DNA from: Methanotrichaceae archaeon
Lineage (GTDB): Archaea > Halobacteriota > Methanosarcinia > Methanotrichales > Methanotrichaceae
Length of the DNA stretch: 64,000 bases
Direction: 5' to 3'
NCBI GenBank assembly: GCA_013178225.1
Contig: JABLXE010000001.1
Coordinates: forward strand, 62,001 to 126,000
Shown: in pieces, positions 13,540 to 23,642 of the stretch
Position numbering within the stretch: the stretch's first letter is position 1
Layout: each line of letters opens with the position of its first letter
Translations under genes and position numbers: made by a program
The notes under the pieces: model-generated
What the model was told of the DNA's origin: nothing
What the model saw: the letters and a program-made list of their open reading frames with translations, nothing else
Database searches by the model: none

Positions 13540-14126
13540 TGGCCGGCGGCCGGGGAACCAGGCTGAAGATGGGAGAAAAGCCGCTGGTAAACCTGCTGGG
13601 AAGGCCGCTCATAGACTATGTGGTCTCGGCTCTCGAGGATTCAGGAGTGGACAGAATCTACGCGGCGGTCACCGCGAACGTTCCCGGCACCCGTGACTGG
13701 GCCGAGGACCGGGGGTTGACCGCCCTGGAGACTCCGGGAACGGGCTTTGTGGCCGATATGGTCAGTGGGGTAAAGGCTGCGGGCTTAAGAGATCCGGTGA
13801 TGGTGATCATGGCCGATCTGCCGCTGGTCACCAGCGACATAATCGATGACATCATAGATACATACGAGGATCGACCGGAGCCGGCTCTGTCCACGCACAC
13901 GCCCCTCCATCTGCACAGCCGCCTGGGAAGAAGGCCCGATTCCCTGTTCAGCTATCGGGGCCAGTTCATCGTCCCCTCGGGAATTAACATCCTCGATGCC
14001 ACCTCCATCGAAGAGGAACAGGAGGACTTTCATCTGATAATGGAAAGAATCGAGCTGGCCGTGAACGTAAATCTGGTCGAGGACCTCAAGCTGTGTGAGA
14101 AGATAATGCTGGGTGATCTCTATTGA
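13524..14126 (+). CDS. cobY: GTP:adenosylcobinamide-phosphate guanylyltransferase CobY
   Basis: A 200-residue NTP transferase, the archaeal non-homologous replacement for the guanylyltransferase activity of bacterial CobU. The nucleotide-binding motif VVMAGGRGTRL with a following EKPLVNLLGRPL is at the N-terminus, and IMADLPLVTSDI holds the metal-binding Asp. The start is TTG at 13524, eight bases downstream of GGGAGG and inside the end of cobS. It supplies adenosylcobinamide-GDP to CobS. Confidence 0.93.
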   Translation: MDAVVMAGGRGTRLKMGEKPLVNLLGRPLIDYVVSALEDSGVDRIYAAVTANVPGTRDWAEDRGLTALETPGTGFVADMVSGVKAAGLRDPVMVIMADLPLVTSDIIDDIIDTYEDRPEPALSTHTPLHLHSRLGRRPDSLFSYRGQFIVPSGINILDATSIEEEQEDFHLIMERIELAVNVNLVEDLKLCEKIMLGDLY

Positions 14127-14488
14127 ACGACTCCGATGTAACCTTCAATGGCGAGAAGTACTCGTCAGCCGAACTGAAATTGATCATGGGCCTCGACGAG
14201 ATAAAGGAGCCGAAGCCCTACATTCTCCTGGTGGCCAGAGCACTGAAGTGTCCCATGAGGCTGCCCTGGTTTTTGAGCGACATTTGCGCCCTTTGCCTGG
14301 CTGAGCCCGACCAGCGGGATCTGCGGCTGGCCCTGATCCGGGTGCAGATAGACGCAGAGCTGAGGATGAACCAGGACATCCAGAAATACCAGCAAAGACG
14401 CTATGTGGCCCAGGTAATTGAGATCCTGCTCTTCAATGAGCTTCTGCTGGCCCCGCGCGAGCCGGTCGAAGAGGCCGTGATGGAGTGA
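14123..14488 (+). CDS. Unknown protein encoded after cobY
   Basis: A 121-residue, largely helical soluble protein that I do not recognise. The TTG start overlaps the cobY TGA (TTGA) with GGTGAT just upstream, so it is translationally coupled to cobY. Two Cys residues sit at DICALCLAEPDQRD, and the C-terminal half (QKYQQRRYVAQVIEILLFNELLL) is a likely long helix. Its place as the fourth gene of the cobZ-cobS-cobY set hints at a link to cobamide metabolism, but nothing in the sequence proves that. Confidence 0.7.
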   Translation: MNDSDVTFNGEKYSSAELKLIMGLDEIKEPKPYILLVARALKCPMRLPWFLSDICALCLAEPDQRDLRLALIRVQIDAELRMNQDIQKYQQRRYVAQVIEILLFNELLLAPREPVEEAVME

Positions 14489-14614: not shown

Positions 14615-15001
14615 TCAGCCGCACCCACACCCTCCGCCACTAGAGGTCGTGGCGGTAAATCCGCTCCCCTCAGAGATTGGATACATGACGTTGGTGTATC
14701 CGGTCAGGTTTCCGGAGATACGGTCCTTCGAATAGGTGGACAGGTCGATTGCTTTCTTTTCAGGACTCTCGCTGATCGAGCTGTTCAGAGTTGCATTGAT
14801 GGCAGTATTATTGAGGGTGGTGTTGTTGGCGAAAGAGACCTGTGCCTCGGGGGCCGTTGCCTCCTCTGCGCCGGACTGCAGCTTGAGCGAGCCCAGGTTG
14901 ATCTCCGTCTTCATGGGCGCAAACTGTGCAGAGGCTGCAAATAAGCAGGTGACGAGGACCGCGGCCAGGGCCATACAGGCGGCTGCATTTTTGGAAAACA
15001 T
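14615..15001 (-). CDS. Secreted sequon-rich small protein with GGGCGCG tail
   Basis: A 128-residue protein not recognised from any family. It starts with a signal peptide (AAACMALAAVLVTCLFAASAQ). The middle has several N-glycosylation sequons close together (NNT, NNT, NAT, NSS, then NLT), and the chain ends SSGGGCGCG. The start has an AGGAGTG ribosome site. It lies directly downstream of cdhE on the same strand, separated by a hairpin. A surface or sheath component is a possible reading; a processed peptide is another. Neither is shown by the sequence. Confidence 0.72.
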   Translation of the reverse strand: MFSKNAAACMALAAVLVTCLFAASAQFAPMKTEINLGSLKLQSGAEEATAPEAQVSFANNTTLNNTAINATLNSSISESPEKKAIDLSTYSKDRISGNLTGYTNVMYPISEGSGFTATTSSGGGCGCG

Positions 15002-15023
15002 GGTATTTCACTCCTGGATTGGC

Positions 15024-15039
15024 CTTCCATATTTGGAAG
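15024..15039. repeat. Inverted repeat upstream of the secreted-protein gene
   Basis: CTTCCA-TATT-TGGAAG lies between the cdhE terminator hairpin and the start of the secreted-protein gene. It could be an operator for that gene. No regulator is assigned. Confidence 0.35.
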
Positions 15040-15044
15040 CGCCG

Positions 15045-15078
15045 GCAAAAATAGAAAGCGGAGTGCCCTTTCGGGCAC
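15045..15078 (-). terminator. Terminator after the ACDS operon
   Basis: On the minus strand GTGCCC-GAAA-GGGCAC (15063-15078) forms a perfect 6-bp stem and is followed by a T-rich run ending TTTCTATTTTT. It lies 20 bp past the cdhE stop. The T-rich run may also act as the TATA element of the next gene. Confidence 0.6.
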
Positions 15079-15097
15079 AGCGTTAGTTCTCAAACGT

Positions 15098-16510
15098 TTA
15101 CTTGGGTGGCCAGAAGCTCTTCATCCAATCAGAGATTCTTCCCGAGTCTTCAGGCCCGACCATGATCTTGGCCTTGCCGGCGAAGAGGTCCTCCAGCTCG
15201 CCGGAGAACTTGGCAGCCATTCCCGGCAGCACCAGGCCGGCGCTCTTCTGGCCAGCCCAGTCGAATCCGGTCTCGTCCATGGAGTCCTTGATCTTGACTG
15301 GAGTCAGCTGACCGCCAGCGACTGAGGCCTGCACTCCGATACCATCGGTGTTGATGGACAGGATATAGGCATCGATGCCGTTGGAGGCGATATCTGACTC
15401 GACGGTGTAGTAGGTCAGGGCGAAGTTGGTGGTCACGAAGACCGGCGACTCGGCTCCGGGGTTGCCAACCTTGTACAGGCCCGGCTTTACCTGCACCGGC
15501 GTCCTGGGATCGGTGTAGATGTTGAACCGCAGATGCATATCCGGCATCATGCTGTGGGCCTCGACGGAGTGCTTGACCATGATGGCGGCGCCGCGAATGG
15601 TGAAGGCCGCGGTCAGGACAGACTCCCAGTAAGCAGCCCTTACCGGATCATCGGTGGTCATCCAGGCGTTGATTGGCAGAGCTATGACTGGATAGGCGAT
15701 GTCCCTCTGAGCTTCCTCGACTGCGGCACGCCGCAGGTTGATGAAGTTGAGCAGGGTCTGCTGCAGCATCTTGCCATTGGGTGCGGTTCCGGGGTCCAGG
15801 ATCAGATCGGTCAGCCCCATCTCGGCAAAGGTAACTGCCATGGACTTGAGGCCGTCCAGGTCGAAGGGCACGCTGAGCGTGACCGGCACCTTGTAGTCAT
15901 TGGCTAGCTGAGCCACTTCCTTCCAGTTGTCCTTGTTGGCGGCGTAGATCAGAGGCCTGGCTTTGCCTGCGACCTCGAGGCCGGCCTTGAGGACTGCCGG
16001 GTTGAATGAGCAGAGGATCAGCGGATAGTCGGTGTTCTCCATAACCTTCTTGACGCAGGCCGCGAACTTGGCCGGGTCGTCGGTCACGGACCGAACCGCG
16101 ATCATCTCTACGCGCTCCCACTTGCCGATGTAGAACTTCTTCCAGGTGGAGACCTTCTTGACTCGTTCGACGAGCTTGGCCTCTTCCATGTTATCGGTTA
16201 CATCGTAGGCAAATGGCGGCTTGTTGAAGAAGGTCATCTGGTGGCGGTACATTACGTCCTCGCCTCCTACCTTCAGCTGCTTGTCGCCAACGCCGATATA
16301 GACCATCTTCAGCTCAGGAGCGATGATGCTCTTGAGTGCTGCAAGCTTCTTGGCGTACTTCTTCTCCTCGACCAGGGGAGGACACTCCTCGATCTTCTTG
16401 GATCTGGCGATCAGGCCGGAGGCAAAGGCCATACAGGTAGTCTCGCCGCACTTCTGACAGTTGGTCTGGGGAAGCTGCTTGTAAAGGTTAAGCGGGCTAG
16501 TTTCCTTCAT
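15098..16510 (-). CDS. cdhE: ACDS gamma subunit, corrinoid Fe-S protein large subunit
   Basis: A 470-residue subunit of the ACDS complex. With CdhD it carries the corrinoid that takes the methyl group of acetyl-CoA and passes it to tetrahydrosarcinapterin or tetrahydromethanopterin. The N-terminal [4Fe-4S] motif NCQKCGETTCMAFA..EECP (about residues 12-37) is the cluster that reactivates the corrinoid. A TIM-barrel and a C-terminal corrinoid domain (DGIGVQASVAGGQ) follow. ATG 16510 is chosen over an upstream ATG at 16537 that would overlap cdhD; GGGGGTG precedes it. It is the last ACDS gene. Confidence 0.95.
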   Translation of the reverse strand: MKETSPLNLYKQLPQTNCQKCGETTCMAFASGLIARSKKIEECPPLVEEKKYAKKLAALKSIIAPELKMVYIGVGDKQLKVGGEDVMYRHQMTFFNKPPFAYDVTDNMEEAKLVERVKKVSTWKKFYIGKWERVEMIAVRSVTDDPAKFAACVKKVMENTDYPLILCSFNPAVLKAGLEVAGKARPLIYAANKDNWKEVAQLANDYKVPVTLSVPFDLDGLKSMAVTFAEMGLTDLILDPGTAPNGKMLQQTLLNFINLRRAAVEEAQRDIAYPVIALPINAWMTTDDPVRAAYWESVLTAAFTIRGAAIMVKHSVEAHSMMPDMHLRFNIYTDPRTPVQVKPGLYKVGNPGAESPVFVTTNFALTYYTVESDIASNGIDAYILSINTDGIGVQASVAGGQLTPVKIKDSMDETGFDWAGQKSAGLVLPGMAAKFSGELEDLFAGKAKIMVGPEDSGRISDWMKSFWPPK

Positions 16511-16515
16511 TTTTC

Positions 16516-17871
16516 TCACACCCCCATCTTGAGCCATCCGGTTGTATCCGGAGTCTTGGCCTCGATTAATCCCATAAGAGACTGGGTGATCTCATGCACA
16601 TAGGAGACCGCCATCGGGTGCATCATCATGAAGATGTCGACGCCGGCCATGGCCAGAGTAAATCCGGTCATGATCTCCCAGATGGGACCGCGTAGCATCC
16701 TGTCTCCCCAATCGGAGTCTTCCTTGTTGGGTGAGCGGACCATCCAGGCCTCTCTTACGCCCCAGGCGTTGGTGGTACCGGAGGACATGGGGAAGGTCAG
16801 CTCATCGTCGCCCTTCAGAGCGCCGAGCCTGATTCTCTCCATGTTGGTGTAGGCGAAGTCCAGGCCGTAAGCCAGAGCTGCGGTGGTCGGGTCCATGACG
16901 ATGGATTCCCTGGGCAGGCCCACTACCTTCATCAGCTTCCTGTTCAGCTCCTTCTGAGAGTTGATCTCCAGCTGAGTCCAGGCCAGACAAACGTGTCCGT
17001 TATCCTTACAGGCCTTGCCGATCATCTCCCAGTCCATGTTCAGGTTGGCGGAGGCGATCAGTGCGCGCTCGCCCTGAGCGGCTTCAGCGGCCTTGGCCAG
17101 CAGGATGGGGTCCTTATCCGGATTACCGGACCCGCCGATGCAGATAGGTACGTCCACTGCCTGCAGGACATCCTCAACTACCTTCACAGCCTCCTGGGGC
17201 GGGGTGTCCTTGAGGAGCGGGTCTGTACTGATCAGGTGAATGGTGACCAGGTCGGCTCCGAACTTATTGACAGCCTTCTTGGCCCACTCGGCCGGGCTTC
17301 CCATGACATCTTCATAGTGCATCTTGACGGCCTTGGCCATGCCGATGGGCATATCGAAGACGTCCATGGTAATCTTGGGGGCATTGGGCATGGGGGCATC
17401 CGGGAAGAATGCCATGGCCTTCTCTCCGCCCAGCTTCCTGACAACTCCGCGGCTTCCGCCGTCTGCTTTGGTGGCGCCGACAGTGACCTCCTGGATAGGC
17501 AACTTCCAGGTCTTATCGGTTCCAACCGAGAACTTGGCGGATGCCAGCTGCGCTGCTACCTTAAAGGCGGGCTCAGCTGCTGCGGCAGCGGCAACCATTC
17601 CGGCAGGTGCCGGAGCAACTGCCTGGGCCACGGCCACGGGCTGCATGAGCGCATCCACGGGATAGCCCACTGCCTTTGCGAAGTTTATGAGCTGCATGGC
17701 GATCTTGGCTGCCTCCTGGCCGAAATAATAGGCAAAGAGGGGGCCAACGCCGCCTGCACCTGCGTCCAATTCAATCTCTATATCGCCCTCGATCTTAACA
17801 CCCTCGAGGGACTGAACATTCATTTCTGATAGCGTCTTATTCAGGTCAGATAATGTCATCTTTCCTGCCAT
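16516..17871 (-). CDS. cdhD: ACDS delta subunit, corrinoid Fe-S protein small subunit
   Basis: A 451-residue partner of CdhE. The N-terminal part ([32 protein letters not shown] region) and an Ala/Pro-rich linker near residue 85 ([12 protein letters not shown]) lead into a TIM-barrel methyltransferase-like domain with VTIHLIST and [12 protein letters not shown]. It helps bind the corrinoid and dock tetrahydropterin. Spacing to the genes on either side is only a few bases, so it is operonic. Length fits methanogen CdhD. Confidence 0.95.
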
Positions 17872-17882
17872 TCAAATCACCC

Positions 17883-18644
17883 TCATAGGCCCAGCTCCTT
17901 GACCACCTGCTTCATCTCCACGATGGCTGGCGAGTCGTCGGGCAGGCCCGTCAACGGATCTCCCACTAGGTCAAATTTGGCTAAATTCTGGTCAAAGGGA
18001 ACGGCGCCGATAACCTTGAGGCCCAGGCCGATGGCTGTTTCCAGAACTTTCTCCCTCCGCTCTGGCGTGACCTTGTTCACGATCACATGCAGATCTTTGT
18101 ACTTGAGATCCATCTCCTTTGCCAGGTCGCGAATGCGTTCTGCAGTCGTAAGTCCTCTCCTGGACTCATCGGTGACAACGATCAGATCATCCAGTTCTGG
18201 GAATATCTTACGGCTGAAGTGCTCCAGCCCCGCTGCTGCATCAATCAGAACAAGATCGTAGTTGACGACCGTTTTATCCATGATGCCTCGCAGAAGGTTA
18301 TTCACAAAACAGTAGCATCCTGAACCTTCCGGCTTTCCCATGATCAGCATGTCATATCCATCCTCTTCGATCAATATCTCAAAGATCTTGGATTCGAAAA
18401 GGCGCTGTTTATCGGTATCGGGGGCCGCAGTGAAGCGAGACTCTTGCATGAACTCCCTCATGTCCCCGACGGTCTTGGAAGCCTCAACTCCCAGCGCATC
18501 AGCGAGATTGGCGTCAGGATCAGCATCGATCACGAGAATATTATATTTATTTTGGGACTCTTTCAGCAGATGCCTGATCAGCATCGCGGTCACAGCCGTC
18601 TTGCCTGTACCGCCCTTGCCGGTTACCGCAATTATCTTCCCCAA
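17883..18644 (-). CDS. cooC: CooC-type nickel-insertion ATPase
   Basis: A 253-residue MinD/NifH-like P-loop ATPase with the deviant Walker A VTGKGGTGKTA at the N-terminus and an Asp-rich switch (LVIDADPDANLADALG). CooC proteins load nickel into the C-cluster of carbon monoxide dehydrogenase. A conserved Cys pair region with GSGCYCFVNN near residue 112 fits the CxC metal site of the family. Its place between cdhC-side and cdhD genes supports a role in maturing CdhA or CdhC. Confidence 0.9.
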   Translation of the reverse strand: MGKIIAVTGKGGTGKTAVTAMLIRHLLKESQNKYNILVIDADPDANLADALGVEASKTVGDMREFMQESRFTAAPDTDKQRLFESKIFEILIEEDGYDMLIMGKPEGSGCYCFVNNLLRGIMDKTVVNYDLVLIDAAAGLEHFSRKIFPELDDLIVVTDESRRGLTTAERIRDLAKEMDLKYKDLHVIVNKVTPERREKVLETAIGLGLKVIGAVPFDQNLAKFDLVGDPLTGLPDDSPAIVEMKQVVKELGL

Positions 18645-18657
18645 GGTTAGCCTTCCT

Positions 18658-18837
18658 TTACTTCTTTGGTTTAATGACCACTTCCGCCACGTGGACGGAT
18701 GCTCCTCTGAGCTCTATTGTGATTCCACCTGAAGAAGCTGCAGGCATCGCAAATCCTGGCGCTGCTGCTGCTGCGGCAGGTGCGGCCGCCGGTGCGGCTG
18801 CTGCTGCAGGCTCCTTCTTCTTGAGTGACAGCTTCAT
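18658..18837 (-). CDS. Ala-rich mini-protein 2, CdhC C-terminal-tail-like
   Basis: A 59-residue protein easily missed because of its size. It begins MKLSLKKKEP, has a long Ala/Pro linker, then GFAMPAASSGGITIELRG and VHVAEVVIKPKK. An SD (GAGGGAG) sits 6-7 bases before the ATG. It is a paralogue of the mini-gene just upstream: same basic start, same linker, same GGI-beta-strand ending. From memory the ending resembles the C-terminal extension of Methanosarcina CdhC. It lies 14 bp before cooC in the ACDS operon. Role unproven; a docking peptide for the complex is plausible. Confidence 0.75.
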   Translation of the reverse strand: MKLSLKKKEPAAAAAPAAAPAAAAAAPGFAMPAASSGGITIELRGASVHVAEVVIKPKK

Positions 18838-18926
18838 AGTTTTCTCCCTCGCAATTTTTCAAGAATAATTTCACCCGCGAAGCAAAAACCGCAGTCATCC
18901 TCCTAAAAAAAGGAAGAGATGCGGCT

Positions 18927-19112
18927 TTACTTGGCGAGTGTCACTTTGTCTATGCTGATCTTAGCGTCCTTGAGCACCAGCTTGATGCCGCCCGATGATC
19001 CGGCAGACATTGCAAATGCGGGTGCTGCGGGTGCTGCACCAGCAGCGGGAGCGGCGGCCGCTGGGGCCGCAGCTGCTGCAGGTTCCTTCTTCTTCAAAGT
19101 TAGCTTTGCCAT
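18927..19112 (-). CDS. Ala-rich mini-protein 1, CdhC C-terminal-tail-like
   Basis: A 61-residue protein: MAKLTLKKKEP, an Ala/Pro linker of about 20 residues, then SAGSSGGIKLVLKDAKISI and DKVTLAK. The SD GGAGGGAG precedes the ATG. It starts 18 bp after the cdhC stop. The ending matches, from memory, the last residues of Methanosarcina CdhC (GGIKLTFKNAKITIDR), which are part of that protein. The CdhC here lacks this ending. It therefore looks like a detached domain of acetyl-CoA synthase that was then duplicated. Low complexity makes homology searches weak, so only the last 25 residues are informative. Confidence 0.78.
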   Translation of the reverse strand: MAKLTLKKKEPAAAAAPAAAAPAAGAAPAAPAFAMSAGSSGGIKLVLKDAKISIDKVTLAK

Positions 19113-19130
19113 TTTTCTCCCTCCTCGATT

Positions 19131-20540
19131 TCACTCGAGTACGCCATCTGCTTGCAGAGCCTCGACGACCTGCATGAACTGGCCCTCAGACATCCCGAGC
19201 TTTGCCTTTACGGCCTCGGTGTCGATGTCGCCGCCAGTTGCCTCTATGAAAGCGATGACCTTTTCCTTCATGTCGTCATCGATATCCTCGAACTTCCAGC
19301 CCTCGGTTATCTTGGCACCGTCAACTGGCCTGCTGACGCCGTTGACCACAGGATGGTCTACCTTCAGCAGGAACTTCTTTAAGGATTCGATATCAGTGGC
19401 ATCGGCCTCGGTAGCGATCTTGGGGAACATGGCCTCGGGAATTCCGGCCTTTACCCTTTCCTTCAGTCCCTTGGACATCCAGACGATCCTGTCCCAGCCG
19501 CCGTCGGCCTGCAGGAACTTGGGCGAGAAGTAGTACAGCACACCCATGCCCAGGAAGCCTACGACCTGCTTGCCGCCGCCGGTCTGGCCAGCCATGGTGG
19601 AGAAGGGCAGGCCGTTGGGGGCAGCTCCCTTGAAGTCACGGTCGGCGATGCCGATTCCGTCTACCTCAGGCATGTAGAAGCCGATGGTCTCGAAGCAGCC
19701 ACAGGAGGTGTGGGGTGCATCGAAGAACGTGTACAGCTTCATGACGCTGTACTCGCCGCCGGACCTCTGCTCGGCCATCTGGTTGATGGCTTCGTACTCG
19801 CCGGCAATGGCGTCGATAGCGGTTCCCTTCTCAATGGGGAACTGGGGTCCCTCTGGGTCTACCTTGGCAGCAGCCCGGCCATCGAACCAGGTGATGGCAC
19901 CGCACAGGGAAGGCCTGTCAGGAGTGACCACGCAGGCGCTGGTGGGGGCGAAAGCCTGGCAGAGAGTGCAGCCGTAGAAGACGTCCACGTCCTCATCGTG
20001 CAGTCCCTTGGCGCGCTCGTCCCTGGCAGCGTAGACTGCCATGGCGTTGGCCAGCTGCTTCTTGACTTCAGCCGGATCGGTGTAGATGGTGATCTCCATC
20101 TTCTCGATGAAGGGCATCTCGGCCTTGTACAGATCGATGACCGGCTTGTAAATCTGAGTCCAGGAGGTGACTCCCTTCTTCTTGAGGTTGGTGCCGATCC
20201 TCATCCAGATATCGTACCTCTGGTTCAGGTGCATGAGCCCGCTGATGTAGGACAGCAGGGCGTGGTTGCGCCTCTCGATGATGGACTCGAGGTCCTTCTC
20301 GATCTTCTCGCCGCCAACCTTGAAGACCATGCCGAAGGGCATGGTGGTGCCCTCTGCCGTCTCGCCGAGATCCGGGCCCACTACTGTAACCTTTCCATCC
20401 TCAATCTGGTCCATGGGGGTGGCCAGGGACAGCTCGAAGCCGTCAGCCTTGGGGCCGCCAAGCTCTACCCATAGATCGCCTTTCCTGATTCTCTCGCCCT
20501 CATACATAGGGGATATATCCAACTTGATCTCTTCTGCCAT
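19131..20540 (-). CDS. cdhC: ACDS beta subunit, acetyl-CoA synthase
   Basis: A 469-residue enzyme whose A-cluster makes or breaks the C-C and C-S bonds of acetyl-CoA. The A-cluster Cys residues lie in FYGCTLCQAFAPTSACVV and SLCGAITWFDGR (about residues 188-222), with another conserved Cys pair in HTSCGCFE. The conserved body ends near HPVV (about residue 398). The last 70 residues (GWKFEDIDDDMKEKVIAFIE to QADGVLE) form a helical tail unlike the acidic, Ala/Met-rich extension recalled for Methanosarcina CdhC. The missing extension is apparently encoded by the two mini-genes that follow. Confidence 0.96.
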   Translation of the reverse strand: MAEEIKLDISPMYEGERIRKGDLWVELGGPKADGFELSLATPMDQIEDGKVTVVGPDLGETAEGTTMPFGMVFKVGGEKIEKDLESIIERRNHALLSYISGLMHLNQRYDIWMRIGTNLKKKGVTSWTQIYKPVIDLYKAEMPFIEKMEITIYTDPAEVKKQLANAMAVYAARDERAKGLHDEDVDVFYGCTLCQAFAPTSACVVTPDRPSLCGAITWFDGRAAAKVDPEGPQFPIEKGTAIDAIAGEYEAINQMAEQRSGGEYSVMKLYTFFDAPHTSCGCFETIGFYMPEVDGIGIADRDFKGAAPNGLPFSTMAGQTGGGKQVVGFLGMGVLYYFSPKFLQADGGWDRIVWMSKGLKERVKAGIPEAMFPKIATEADATDIESLKKFLLKVDHPVVNGVSRPVDGAKITEGWKFEDIDDDMKEKVIAFIEATGGDIDTEAVKAKLGMSEGQFMQVVEALQADGVLE

Positions 20541-20569
20541 TAATACACCTCTTCTTCATGAGATGAACT

Positions 20570-21133
20570 TCATTTCTTCAGTGCCGCAATTATCTCTTCC
20601 ACCGCAGCGTGGTAGTCGTCGGGGTCAAAGGCCATGTTGCCGAAGGTCATGTTCGCATTGATGTGGTAGTACCGGTCGATGGATACGCGCTTGATGTCCC
20701 GCTTGAAGTGCTTGAGGGTCGAGAACATGCCGTTGGCGAACTTGTAGAAGATGCCCATGTAAATAACGACATCATACGGGCCCTTTCCATCCAAGCCCTG
20801 CCAGTCATCGAACCTCATATAGCTGGTGAGTGGGTGCAGGCCTATCTGGTAAACATTGTCCAGATATCCCCGCTCTACGAAGCCCTTGACGCTGTGTGCT
20901 GTAGCGGCGATGGGTATTCCGGTCTTTCCGATCTCGATTGCCTTATCGAACATGATCGGGTCATCGAAGAGCTCTGCTCCGACTACGAGCAGTGGTCTCT
21001 TGGCCTTCTTAATTATGGCGGCTATGACCTTAGGCATGTAGGTCTTAGCCATCTCCGGCCCGGGGTACTGGGCCAGATCAAAGGGAATGGGGTTCTTGGT
21101 GGTGTCAACGCCCTTCTTAACTTCTGCTGCCAT
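20570..21133 (-). CDS. cdhB: ACDS epsilon subunit
   Basis: A 187-residue subunit of the DHS-like NAD/FAD-binding fold that binds CdhA in the alpha2-epsilon2 carbon monoxide dehydrogenase component. Typical segments are IIKKAKRPLLVVGAEL, FDKAIEIGKTGIPI and a late IDRYYHINANMTFGN. It may help FAD-linked electron transfer. It starts 13 bp after the cdhA stop and is followed by cdhC. Confidence 0.94.
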   Translation of the reverse strand: MAAEVKKGVDTTKNPIPFDLAQYPGPEMAKTYMPKVIAAIIKKAKRPLLVVGAELFDDPIMFDKAIEIGKTGIPIAATAHSVKGFVERGYLDNVYQIGLHPLTSYMRFDDWQGLDGKGPYDVVIYMGIFYKFANGMFSTLKHFKRDIKRVSIDRYYHINANMTFGNMAFDPDDYHAAVEEIIAALKK

Positions 21134-21146
21134 CTCTATCTCCTCC

Positions 21147-23564
21147 TCACTTCTTCGCCCTTATCTTTCTGGGGATGTTCGTCGGATCGAAGCTCACGTC
21201 AGCAGGCCGGAGTGGTCCTGAGATGAACTTCTTGGCCTTCCAGTCGATCTTCCAGCCGTGCTTCTCCTCGAGTTCCTTCATCATGTCCGCCTGGTAGGCC
21301 AGAGGCAGATCCTTGACGTCTCGGACGAAGATATGCCAGTCATCGGGCAGCTTGCCGAAGTATTTCATGGAGATATCGCAGTAATGGGTCAGCTTGATGC
21401 CTCTGCCCATAGCGTTATCAGAGGGCCTGAAGCAGAGCTTGGCCATCTCCAGCATGGCTTCCTCTTTGGTCTCGGCGATATAGAGCATAGCCTCGGGTGC
21501 GGGCTCGATCTGCTGCATGCTGCCGTCGCGAGCATCGATGACCTGCCAGTCCTCGGGCTTGTCGGCCCTTCCCATGAAGGTCCTTCTGTAGATGACCGAG
21601 TGGGGCTGAACAACTGCGGGCACGCCCAGCCTGTTGAATCCAGTAGCGATGGATGCCGCCTTCTGGGAGAATGCTCCCCAGGCCACACCGCAGGCTCCGA
21701 CCTTGGACAGAATGTAGTCGGCGATGTCGTCGTAGTTGGCGCGGTGATTTCTGTGAGCGAATATGGTCGCGACCTTGATGGCTGCGCCGTGGATGTGGGC
21801 GTTGGCCACGCAGGAGCCGATGTTGCAGATGTTCCTGCCGTCGAAAGCGCCGCCATACTGCTCCCAGATAGTTTTGCCCTCCTCATCCTTGTAAAGAGAC
21901 ATATCCATGGCCATGCAGCCAGTGGCGACTACGATGTAGCCCCTATCCACGAACTCCTTGGCGATGTCATAGCATTCCTTGGTGCCCTTGGGGTAGTTGC
22001 TGCAGCCGATGATGGCTATAACGCCGGGGATTGTTCCCAGCACAATGGGCGCTCCGACTTTCCTGATCTCGGTGTCGCGCACGGGTCCTCTGCCAGCCCT
22101 CATCTTGAACTTGGCGTTCTTGATGTACTCGCGGTTGGCGTACTCGTACAGCGCGAGAATCGGTATCTCCTGAGGACAGGTTACCTCGCATCTGGCACAG
22201 CCCACGCAGGTCTCATAGGAAGACGAGAACGGCTCCAGATTGCCCTTCTTGGCTTCAGCGATCATCATGCTGATGCTGGTGTGCGGCGGGCACACGAAGG
22301 CACATTGATTGCACCCTGTGCATTTCTCCAGGTATTCCTTGAACTGCGCTTCGGTTAGCAGGCTCTCCTGCTTGTACTGAGCGCGCTTGGGCTTGACGGC
22401 AATGGCGGTCCTGATTCCGACCTCTCCGGCCTTTACGGGGTCCAGAATAGCCACGCCTGGCATCTTGAAGCTTACCAGGTCCTCTACGATCTGATCAGCG
22501 GGGTCGTTGGTCCTGTCGGGAAGCCCGAGCATGATCTTGTCGTTGGTGGCGATGACGGGTATGTGACGCTTCTGACAGTCCTCCAGAACGTCGCAGTACA
22601 CGCACTGCTCGTCTACCATCACGGCATCCATTACGCCGGACCGGACCATCTTTCTCCACCAGCCCATGGCACCGGCTACCTTCGCCTTGGGTCCCAGGTT
22701 CTTGGGGATCTTGGAGTCTCTGCCGGTCTCGGTGATCCTGGTGAGATCAATAGCCGTGCAGCACACGCCACCGATATCTACCTTTTCCCAGAGGTTCTGG
22801 TTCTCGGCATAGATCATGGCCTCGGCGCCAGCTGCCAGGTTGTGGCCGTAGGCGATGAGCACTCCCTTATTCTGATCCAGGGTTCCAAGGCCGATCTCCA
22901 CCAGGGGCGCATCTGCTTCGCCGCGGGGCATGTCGTAGGCCACCGTCTGAAGCATATCGCATATCTCCTTGCCCAGGGAATCGATCATGCCAGAATGCAG
23001 AGCCTTGGACTCGAAGTCCTGGTACCATCCTTCCTGGCCCGAGTGTGTTGCAGCCAGAAGCTGTACGATCTCTTCCTCGCAGTACTCCAGAGCCTCTCCG
23101 TAATCCTTGAGAGACTTGGGCTTGATGCCGAGGATGGTCTGGGTCAGGGGCGCATCCACCAGGATCTCATCGCCCATGTCGAACTTCATGTCGCCGAACC
23201 GGTCCAGGCACCAATGGTAGAGGTGTCTGCCGTGGGCAGTGTGCGCGCAGGTTCCCATTAGAACCGCTATCAAGACGATCTTGCCGCAGGTGCCAGCTAT
23301 GTCAATGCCGCAGGCGCCCTTCTGGTTGCCGGTGAGATCGCATGGTCCGTAGGTACAAAGCGTGCAGGTATCATCGGCGGGACAGTACATGATGTGGTAG
23401 CGGTTCATTATCGTGTAGTCCCAGTTGCGGAGTGTGGCCACTTGGGGCTTGGGGAAAGGTCCCATGGGCTGGTCCCACTCTTCTTCCTCTTTAACGACAG
23501 CTCCGATGTTGATCTGGACGTTCTTCATGTCCTCAACAGAGAAGCTGCCTTCAGGTGTTGCCAT
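21147..23564 (-). CDS. cdhA: ACDS alpha subunit, Ni-Fe carbon monoxide dehydrogenase
   Basis: About 805 residues. It oxidises CO to CO2 at the Ni-Fe-S C-cluster and passes electrons to ferredoxin. Visible motifs are the N-terminal Cys cluster MYCPADDTCTLCTYGPCDL, two inserted ferredoxin motifs (CTGCNQCAFVCP and CVGCARCEVTCP), and C-cluster Cys in the GCSNYP, NIGSCVAN and GACGVAWGA segments. An in-frame ATG at 23642 exists, but ATG 23564 (MATPEGSF) has GAGGAGG upstream and fits the family start. It is the first gene of the ACDS operon. The inserted ferredoxin domains mark the methanogen type. Confidence 0.96.
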   Translation of the reverse strand: MATPEGSFSVEDMKNVQINIGAVVKEEEEWDQPMGPFPKPQVATLRNWDYTIMNRYHIMYCPADDTCTLCTYGPCDLTGNQKGACGIDIAGTCGKIVLIAVLMGTCAHTAHGRHLYHWCLDRFGDMKFDMGDEILVDAPLTQTILGIKPKSLKDYGEALEYCEEEIVQLLAATHSGQEGWYQDFESKALHSGMIDSLGKEICDMLQTVAYDMPRGEADAPLVEIGLGTLDQNKGVLIAYGHNLAAGAEAMIYAENQNLWEKVDIGGVCCTAIDLTRITETGRDSKIPKNLGPKAKVAGAMGWWRKMVRSGVMDAVMVDEQCVYCDVLEDCQKRHIPVIATNDKIMLGLPDRTNDPADQIVEDLVSFKMPGVAILDPVKAGEVGIRTAIAVKPKRAQYKQESLLTEAQFKEYLEKCTGCNQCAFVCPPHTSISMMIAEAKKGNLEPFSSSYETCVGCARCEVTCPQEIPILALYEYANREYIKNAKFKMRAGRGPVRDTEIRKVGAPIVLGTIPGVIAIIGCSNYPKGTKECYDIAKEFVDRGYIVVATGCMAMDMSLYKDEEGKTIWEQYGGAFDGRNICNIGSCVANAHIHGAAIKVATIFAHRNHRANYDDIADYILSKVGACGVAWGAFSQKAASIATGFNRLGVPAVVQPHSVIYRRTFMGRADKPEDWQVIDARDGSMQQIEPAPEAMLYIAETKEEAMLEMAKLCFRPSDNAMGRGIKLTHYCDISMKYFGKLPDDWHIFVRDVKDLPLAYQADMMKELEEKHGWKIDWKAKKFISGPLRPADVSFDPTNIPRKIRAKK

Positions 23565-23642
23565 CGAGTTCTTAGCCTCCTCTTCTTTGATATACGCCGC
23601 TTGCGTTGGCTGAAAATAGATAAAACACTTTCGGATACCCAT

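Follow-up and report, generated by a model that had tools for sequence, protein, structure and literature searches.

A conserved, putatively exported protein with a terminal cysteine pair, normally encoded behind the ACDS operon in Methanotrichaceae

Three described systems come closest to the protein considered here. DUF4266 (PF14086) comprises small secreted proteins with a C-terminal CXC motif that may undergo redox cycling (PMC8238504). The Erv/ALR sulfhydryl oxidases carry shuttle disulfides on flexible loops or tails, and the spacing of these pairs varies, from CXC and CXXC to CX4C in cellular Erv enzymes and CX9C in mimivirus R596 (PMC3509050). The third system is the sheath of Methanothrix and Methanospirillum, whose hoops are held by disulfides and require the strong reductant DTT for disassembly, with DsbB/DsbD present in sheathed Methanotrichales (PMC6242892, PMC11576556); the cysteines of the sheath proteins MspA/SH serve inter-subunit disulfides (PMC6242892).

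The protein named X in the following is a predicted secreted protein of 128 residues with two cysteines in its tail, encoded in the assembly of a Methanotrichaceae archaeon (the own genome); all positions refer to the window, i.e., the whole stretch of 64,000 nt that was analysed. Like DUF4266 proteins, X is small and, by its N-terminus, secreted, and it ends in a cysteine pair, but the spacing of this pair is not fixed at CXC, and X has in addition a sequon-rich linker and a GYTNIMYP module. With the Erv/ALR tails it shares a cysteine pair of varying spacing on a flexible segment; FAD or another folded domain is absent, such that the likeness is one of working principle only. Similar to MspA/SH, it appears to be exported, occurs in the same or in similar organisms and has cysteines capable of forming disulfides (PMC6242892), whereas MspA is a 40-61 kDa, amyloid-forming protein with cysteines inside the chain, and X has ~100 mature residues with the cysteines at the very end. 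A large amyloid-forming sheath subunit of the MspA/SH type was rejected as an identity for X, with its 128 residues and no fold in the model, as was an archaeosortase substrate (PGF-CTERM and similar), there being neither a hydrophobic C-terminal helix, in the sequence or in the model, nor a credible NCBIfam CTERM match.

The gene for X occupies positions 14615..15001 on the minus strand, starts with ATG and is preceded by a ribosome-binding site, AGGAGTG (15009..15015, minus), most relatives having a GGAGG-like site in the corresponding position. The initial annotation had set the feature at 14615-15078, a span that holds the gene but merges it with a hairpin further upstream; the gene itself extends only to 15001. 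The protein reads MFSKNAAACMALAAVLVTCLFAASA and, after the predicted cleavage point, QFAPMK...SSGGGCGCG. Residues 1-25 (MFSKNAAACMALAAVLVTCLFAASA; 14927..15001, minus) form a putative signal peptide with cleavage before Q26. Export had been claimed from the outset, and the AxA/Q site bears this out in 21 aligned homologues, with A23 and A25 invariant and Q26 nearly so; from this signal-peptide-like N-terminus and its AASA/Q site, X is predicted to be exported.

Homologues, whose absence from all relatives would have counted against the initial annotation, are plentiful, and X is not an orphan. With the single protein as query, relatives were found in 24/50 Methanotrichaceae genomes, and with an alignment of 21 homologues (A1) in 30/50, belonging to genera g1, g2, g7, g8 and g10; the g10 copy was recognised in part only and appears frameshifted. 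A profile of the C-terminus, run against 394 genomes of the phylum, added one g7 genome (G010) and gave no convincing match beyond Methanotrichaceae, and the weak matches outside the family that were inspected look like chance hits on sequence that is unrelated or of low complexity. The relatives that carry names come from MAGs labelled Methanothrix/Methanosaeta or, less precisely, archaeal. Genomes of g9, which are M. thermoacetophila-like and sheathed, lack X. The homologues, together with purifying selection (dN/dS well below 1 in close pairs), place the gene beyond chance. No Pfam or NCBIfam family reached its cut-off for X, in agreement with the earlier statement that it stands outside known families; a PDB profile search returned nothing credible, no mention of the gene was found in the literature, and neither proteomic nor transcript evidence for it turned up. 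By these comparisons X is an undescribed, lineage-specific family, confined to Methanotrichaceae as far as searched.

The layout shared by the A1 sequences consists of the AxA/Q site, a conserved mature N-terminus, a variable linker, a C-terminal module and finally glycine and two cysteines. In g8 the mature N-terminus reads QWSPGGxMVYMGDLNLAxSS, and the window copy is more diverged. The C-terminal module, residues 85-121 (IDLSTYSKDRISGNLTGYTNVMYPISEGSGFTATTSS; 14639..14749, minus), has the A1 consensus LDLSxYxxDRxNKNLxGYTNIMYPISxSRGxTxST, with D86, L87, Y90, D93, L99, Y102, N104, Y107, P108 and G114 invariant in all 21 sequences, and its dN/dS is the lowest or near-lowest in most pairs. The module is common to the g7 relatives (alignment A2 and others), which retain a WS or WSPG start, LxLSGY...GYTNIFYP and the Gly/Cys tail, and show QLGS-like repeats where X has its sequon-rich linker. 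In close pairs dN/dS is low overall, low in the N- and C-terminal modules and higher in the linker; both modules are thus under strong purifying selection, the linker under a weaker one.

Within this fast-evolving linker lies the sequon cluster, residues 59-75 (14777..14827, minus), to which the initial annotation had drawn attention. NxS/T sites (x not P) occur at residues 59, 60, 64, 69, 73 and 98, i.e., six in total, five of them within 17 residues; shuffled versions of the mature chain average 2.2 sites (P = 0.007), and every one of the 21 close homologues carries 4-9. A predicted signal peptide combined with sequons above chance is the signature of a secreted N-glycoprotein, and X is probably N-glycosylated. 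AlphaFold returned mean pLDDT values of 55 and 33 for the two models and no domain, such that the chain is apparently disordered. A second sequon-rich exported protein type, with NNTTLNNTT runs and ENET motifs, occurs in g8 (L164:1814-2392 and L050:6178-6795) and, sequons aside, seems to have no relation to X.

The glycine-rich tail, GGGCGCG, comprises residues 122-128 with C125 and C127 (14615..14638 including the stop codon, minus). The terminal cysteine pair of the proposed Gly/Cys tail is kept in 29/29 tails compared, one of which has three cysteines, and the remainder of the mature chain is free of cysteine in 19/21 close homologues. The spacing drifts over the 29 tails: CXC in 13, CXXC in seven, CXXXC in five and CC in four. 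As the pair is constant while its spacing varies, the conserved feature is a close thiol pair and not a fixed ligand geometry. A second match to the GCGCG pattern in the own genome is not the end of any credible gene, and a pattern scan of eight genomes showed no other secreted protein with an X-type tail among those inspected. A possible paralogue in G034 (L162:2397-2885, plus) has an FTN...RGFTATTAAG module and a glycine stretch, and ends GGGGGGDYLP without cysteines.

Directly upstream of X lies cdhE, the gene of the ACDS gamma subunit (15098..16537, minus; NF003195, E = 7e-172), preceded in turn by cdhD, a MinD/CooC-like ATPase, cdhC, cdhB and cdhA (16516..23642, minus), with NCBIfam matches confirming the order cdhA-B-C-ATPase-D-E, which is the same in relatives. 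X starts 96 nt past the cdhE stop, and its described placement behind the ACDS hairpin recurs: in 16/16 loci with both genes called on one contig, X is the gene that immediately follows cdhE, in the same orientation. Genera g4, g6, g9 and g11 showed no X immediately behind cdhE, nor did a few members of g8. The G028 copy is interrupted by a stop and sits ~1.7 kb farther along, the copies of two g8 genomes (G025, G020) adjoin unrelated genes, and the g7 gene is separated from cdhE and preceded by conserved sequence in which a promoter of its own may lie. As X is found elsewhere in these genomes, or not behind cdhE in some lineages, its link with ACDS is strong yet not obligatory, and since it is unlinked in the two g8 genomes and in g7, the context names no partner. 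Linkage of X to a gene for DsbD, thioredoxin or a sheath protein was not observed. In its codon usage X ranks as average among the ORFs of the window (24/51 others score higher), unlike most cdh genes, and strong expression is therefore not indicated. On the opposite strand, a 121-residue protein without NCBIfam match (14123-14488, plus) is convergent with X; similar reading frames lie antisense after cdhE in other genera. In L108 of G040, downstream of cdhE, what by eye is a HEPN/MNT-like gene pair directly follows the hairpin, in the place where one would look for X.

The cdhE-X gap contains the hairpin TGTGCCC-GAAA-GGGCAC (15063..15079, minus), an ACDS 3'-end element conserved after cdhE in relatives, and a U-rich tract, TTTCTATTTTT (15047..15057, minus). 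In nearly every syntenic locus TGTGCCC-loop-GGGCACA has a CTTATTTT-like tract behind it. In the own genome the hairpin is the sole TGTGCCC..GGGCAC match, and the RNA fold of the 96-nt gap gives z = -2.9. Across the eight stem pairs, 93.5% of cells retain pairing, compared with 24-64% if the partner is shifted by 1-3 columns; changes in the stem are one-sided wobbles and one C-G to U-A double change, and support from shuffles is modest, the percentage paired being reached by 8/500. Irrespective of the presence of X, the hairpin follows cdhE in g8, g1, g2, g10, g11 and two g7 genomes; cases without an intact X there are G023, G028, G040, g11 and the two g7 genomes. Since it also follows cdhE where X is lacking, the hairpin belongs to ACDS, and a role as an X-specific regulator was rejected on the same ground. 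The GTGCCC/GGGCAC stem sequence is kept across several genera, beyond the needs of a plain terminator. In L049 only ~27 nt, holding the ribosome-binding site, separate the hairpin from the X start codon, a spacing that fits, and would favour, read-through into X.

It can be rationalized from these features that X is a disordered, probably glycosylated envelope protein with a vicinal dithiol on a glycine arm, serving thiol-disulfide exchange or cross-linking in the sheath or envelope; this is the reading to which most weight is given, tentatively and well short of conviction. After removal of the signal peptide behind AxA, a partner at the surface would be contacted by the DLSxY...GYxNIMYP module together with the short N-terminal segment; the linker with its sequons would act as a hydrophilic spacer, and the glycine tail would be the flexible arm bearing the dithiol. 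Most likely, the cell surface is thereby provided with a reactive pair of thiols, which would engage in thiol-disulfide exchange or form disulfide cross-links beyond the membrane, the sheath or envelope being the most plausible site. What favours this dithiol arm is that drift in spacing is tolerated in shuttle disulfides and that the sheaths are held by disulfides; the own genome encodes two DsbD_TM proteins. The earlier proposal of a cell surface or sheath component is plausible, and X would be dispensable for the sheath as such, because the sheathed g9 genomes do without it. The gene, its conservation, the selection on it, the architecture, the constant cysteine pair and the placement behind ACDS are demonstrated; glycosylation, location, redox use and partner are what we infer. 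Its position behind cdhE most likely allows X to profit from transcription running through from the very active ACDS operon, and is less likely the mark of a function in acetyl-CoA cleavage.

Vicinal dithiols also bind soft metals, and the metal-binding anchor proposed in the initial annotation is the chief competitor of the dithiol arm. The tail could accordingly be read as a ligand for Ni, Cu, Zn or Fe, making X an extracellular metal catcher or buffer that perhaps supplies ACDS with nickel or iron, and the close thiol pair on its glycine arm, as well as the frequent linkage to the operon of a Ni-Fe enzyme, are consistent with such a function. A tail of this type occurs in a metal-handling context too, an IscA/HesB protein of G015 ending GGGCGCS in a His/Cys-rich stretch. 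Yet neither His nor acidic ligands stand near the cysteine pair of X, no linked metal transporter was seen, and in genus g7 as well as in two g8 species the gene stands apart from ACDS; the variation in geometry among the 29 tails counts against a single fixed metal site, and this alternative, although the first to be weighed after the dithiol arm, is considered unlikely. That IscA/HesB-like protein (L212:1940-2329, minus), with its long His/Cys-rich tail (CDHDHDSCDHDHGGCDHGHGGGCGCS), is itself probably metal-binding. Ranking next, and likewise unlikely, is a structural surface component without a redox cycle, in which disulfides of the cysteine pair would tie X permanently to the sheath or link it with itself, and the linker, being glycosylated, would serve as a coat. 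A sequon-rich linker, the missing fold and the disulfide-linked sheath of these organisms agree with it, but a single cysteine would suffice for cross-linking, the strictly kept close pair suggests more, and the g9 group lacks X. The favoured order therefore runs from the surface dithiol arm through the soft-metal ligand to the structural cross-linker.

Two further readings are given very little credence. The processed peptide suggested in the initial annotation would correspond to a RiPP-like precursor whose Gly/Cys core is modified and released, and a short protein with a leader-like N-terminus and a Gly/Cys C-terminus, adjoined in genus g7 by a radical SAM/SPASM-like gene, has that appearance; this gene is convergent, though, and its 60%-identical orthologue lies on another contig of the own genome, unlinked to X, such that it was rejected as the maturase partner of the g7 protein. 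With no linked modification enzyme, no conserved maturase or transporter near X and no credible RiPP family match, the suggestion finds no support. Just as improbable is a distant archaeal DUF4266 protein of the ApbE/DUF3570 flavin-thioredoxin relay. It draws on the C-terminus, which Pfam matches weakly to DUF4266 (E = 0.035, or 0.0065 when the C-terminal piece is taken by itself), and on the small, secreted, CXC-ended nature of DUF4266, but the match scores 15.5 bits against a gathering cut-off of 27, appears in only 5/21 members and in 0/3 g7 members scanned, and CXC is kept in no more than 13/29 tails. Membership in PF14086 is largely refuted by the score below cut-off, the lack of ApbE in the own genome and the cdh genes as conserved neighbours. 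The DUF4266 profile gave nothing above cut-off in 200 genomes of the class, and a search of plasmids with an approximate query found no DUF4266 sequences.

Methanothrix is a major producer of methane on acetate, and X is a conserved, unannotated and by all indications exported protein that is normally encoded behind the central energy operon, ACDS, of this organism. A bolder version of the dithiol arm, which we regard as a long shot, would make X a stand-alone extracellular dithiol carrier, i.e., a disordered glycoprotein whose sole active part is the cysteine pair, co-transcribed with ACDS and setting the disulfide state of the sheath or relaying surface electrons in step with acetate metabolism. 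As it stands, X represents a concrete candidate for the poorly understood disulfide chemistry of the sheath, or for electron or metal traffic at the cell surface, in Methanothrix.
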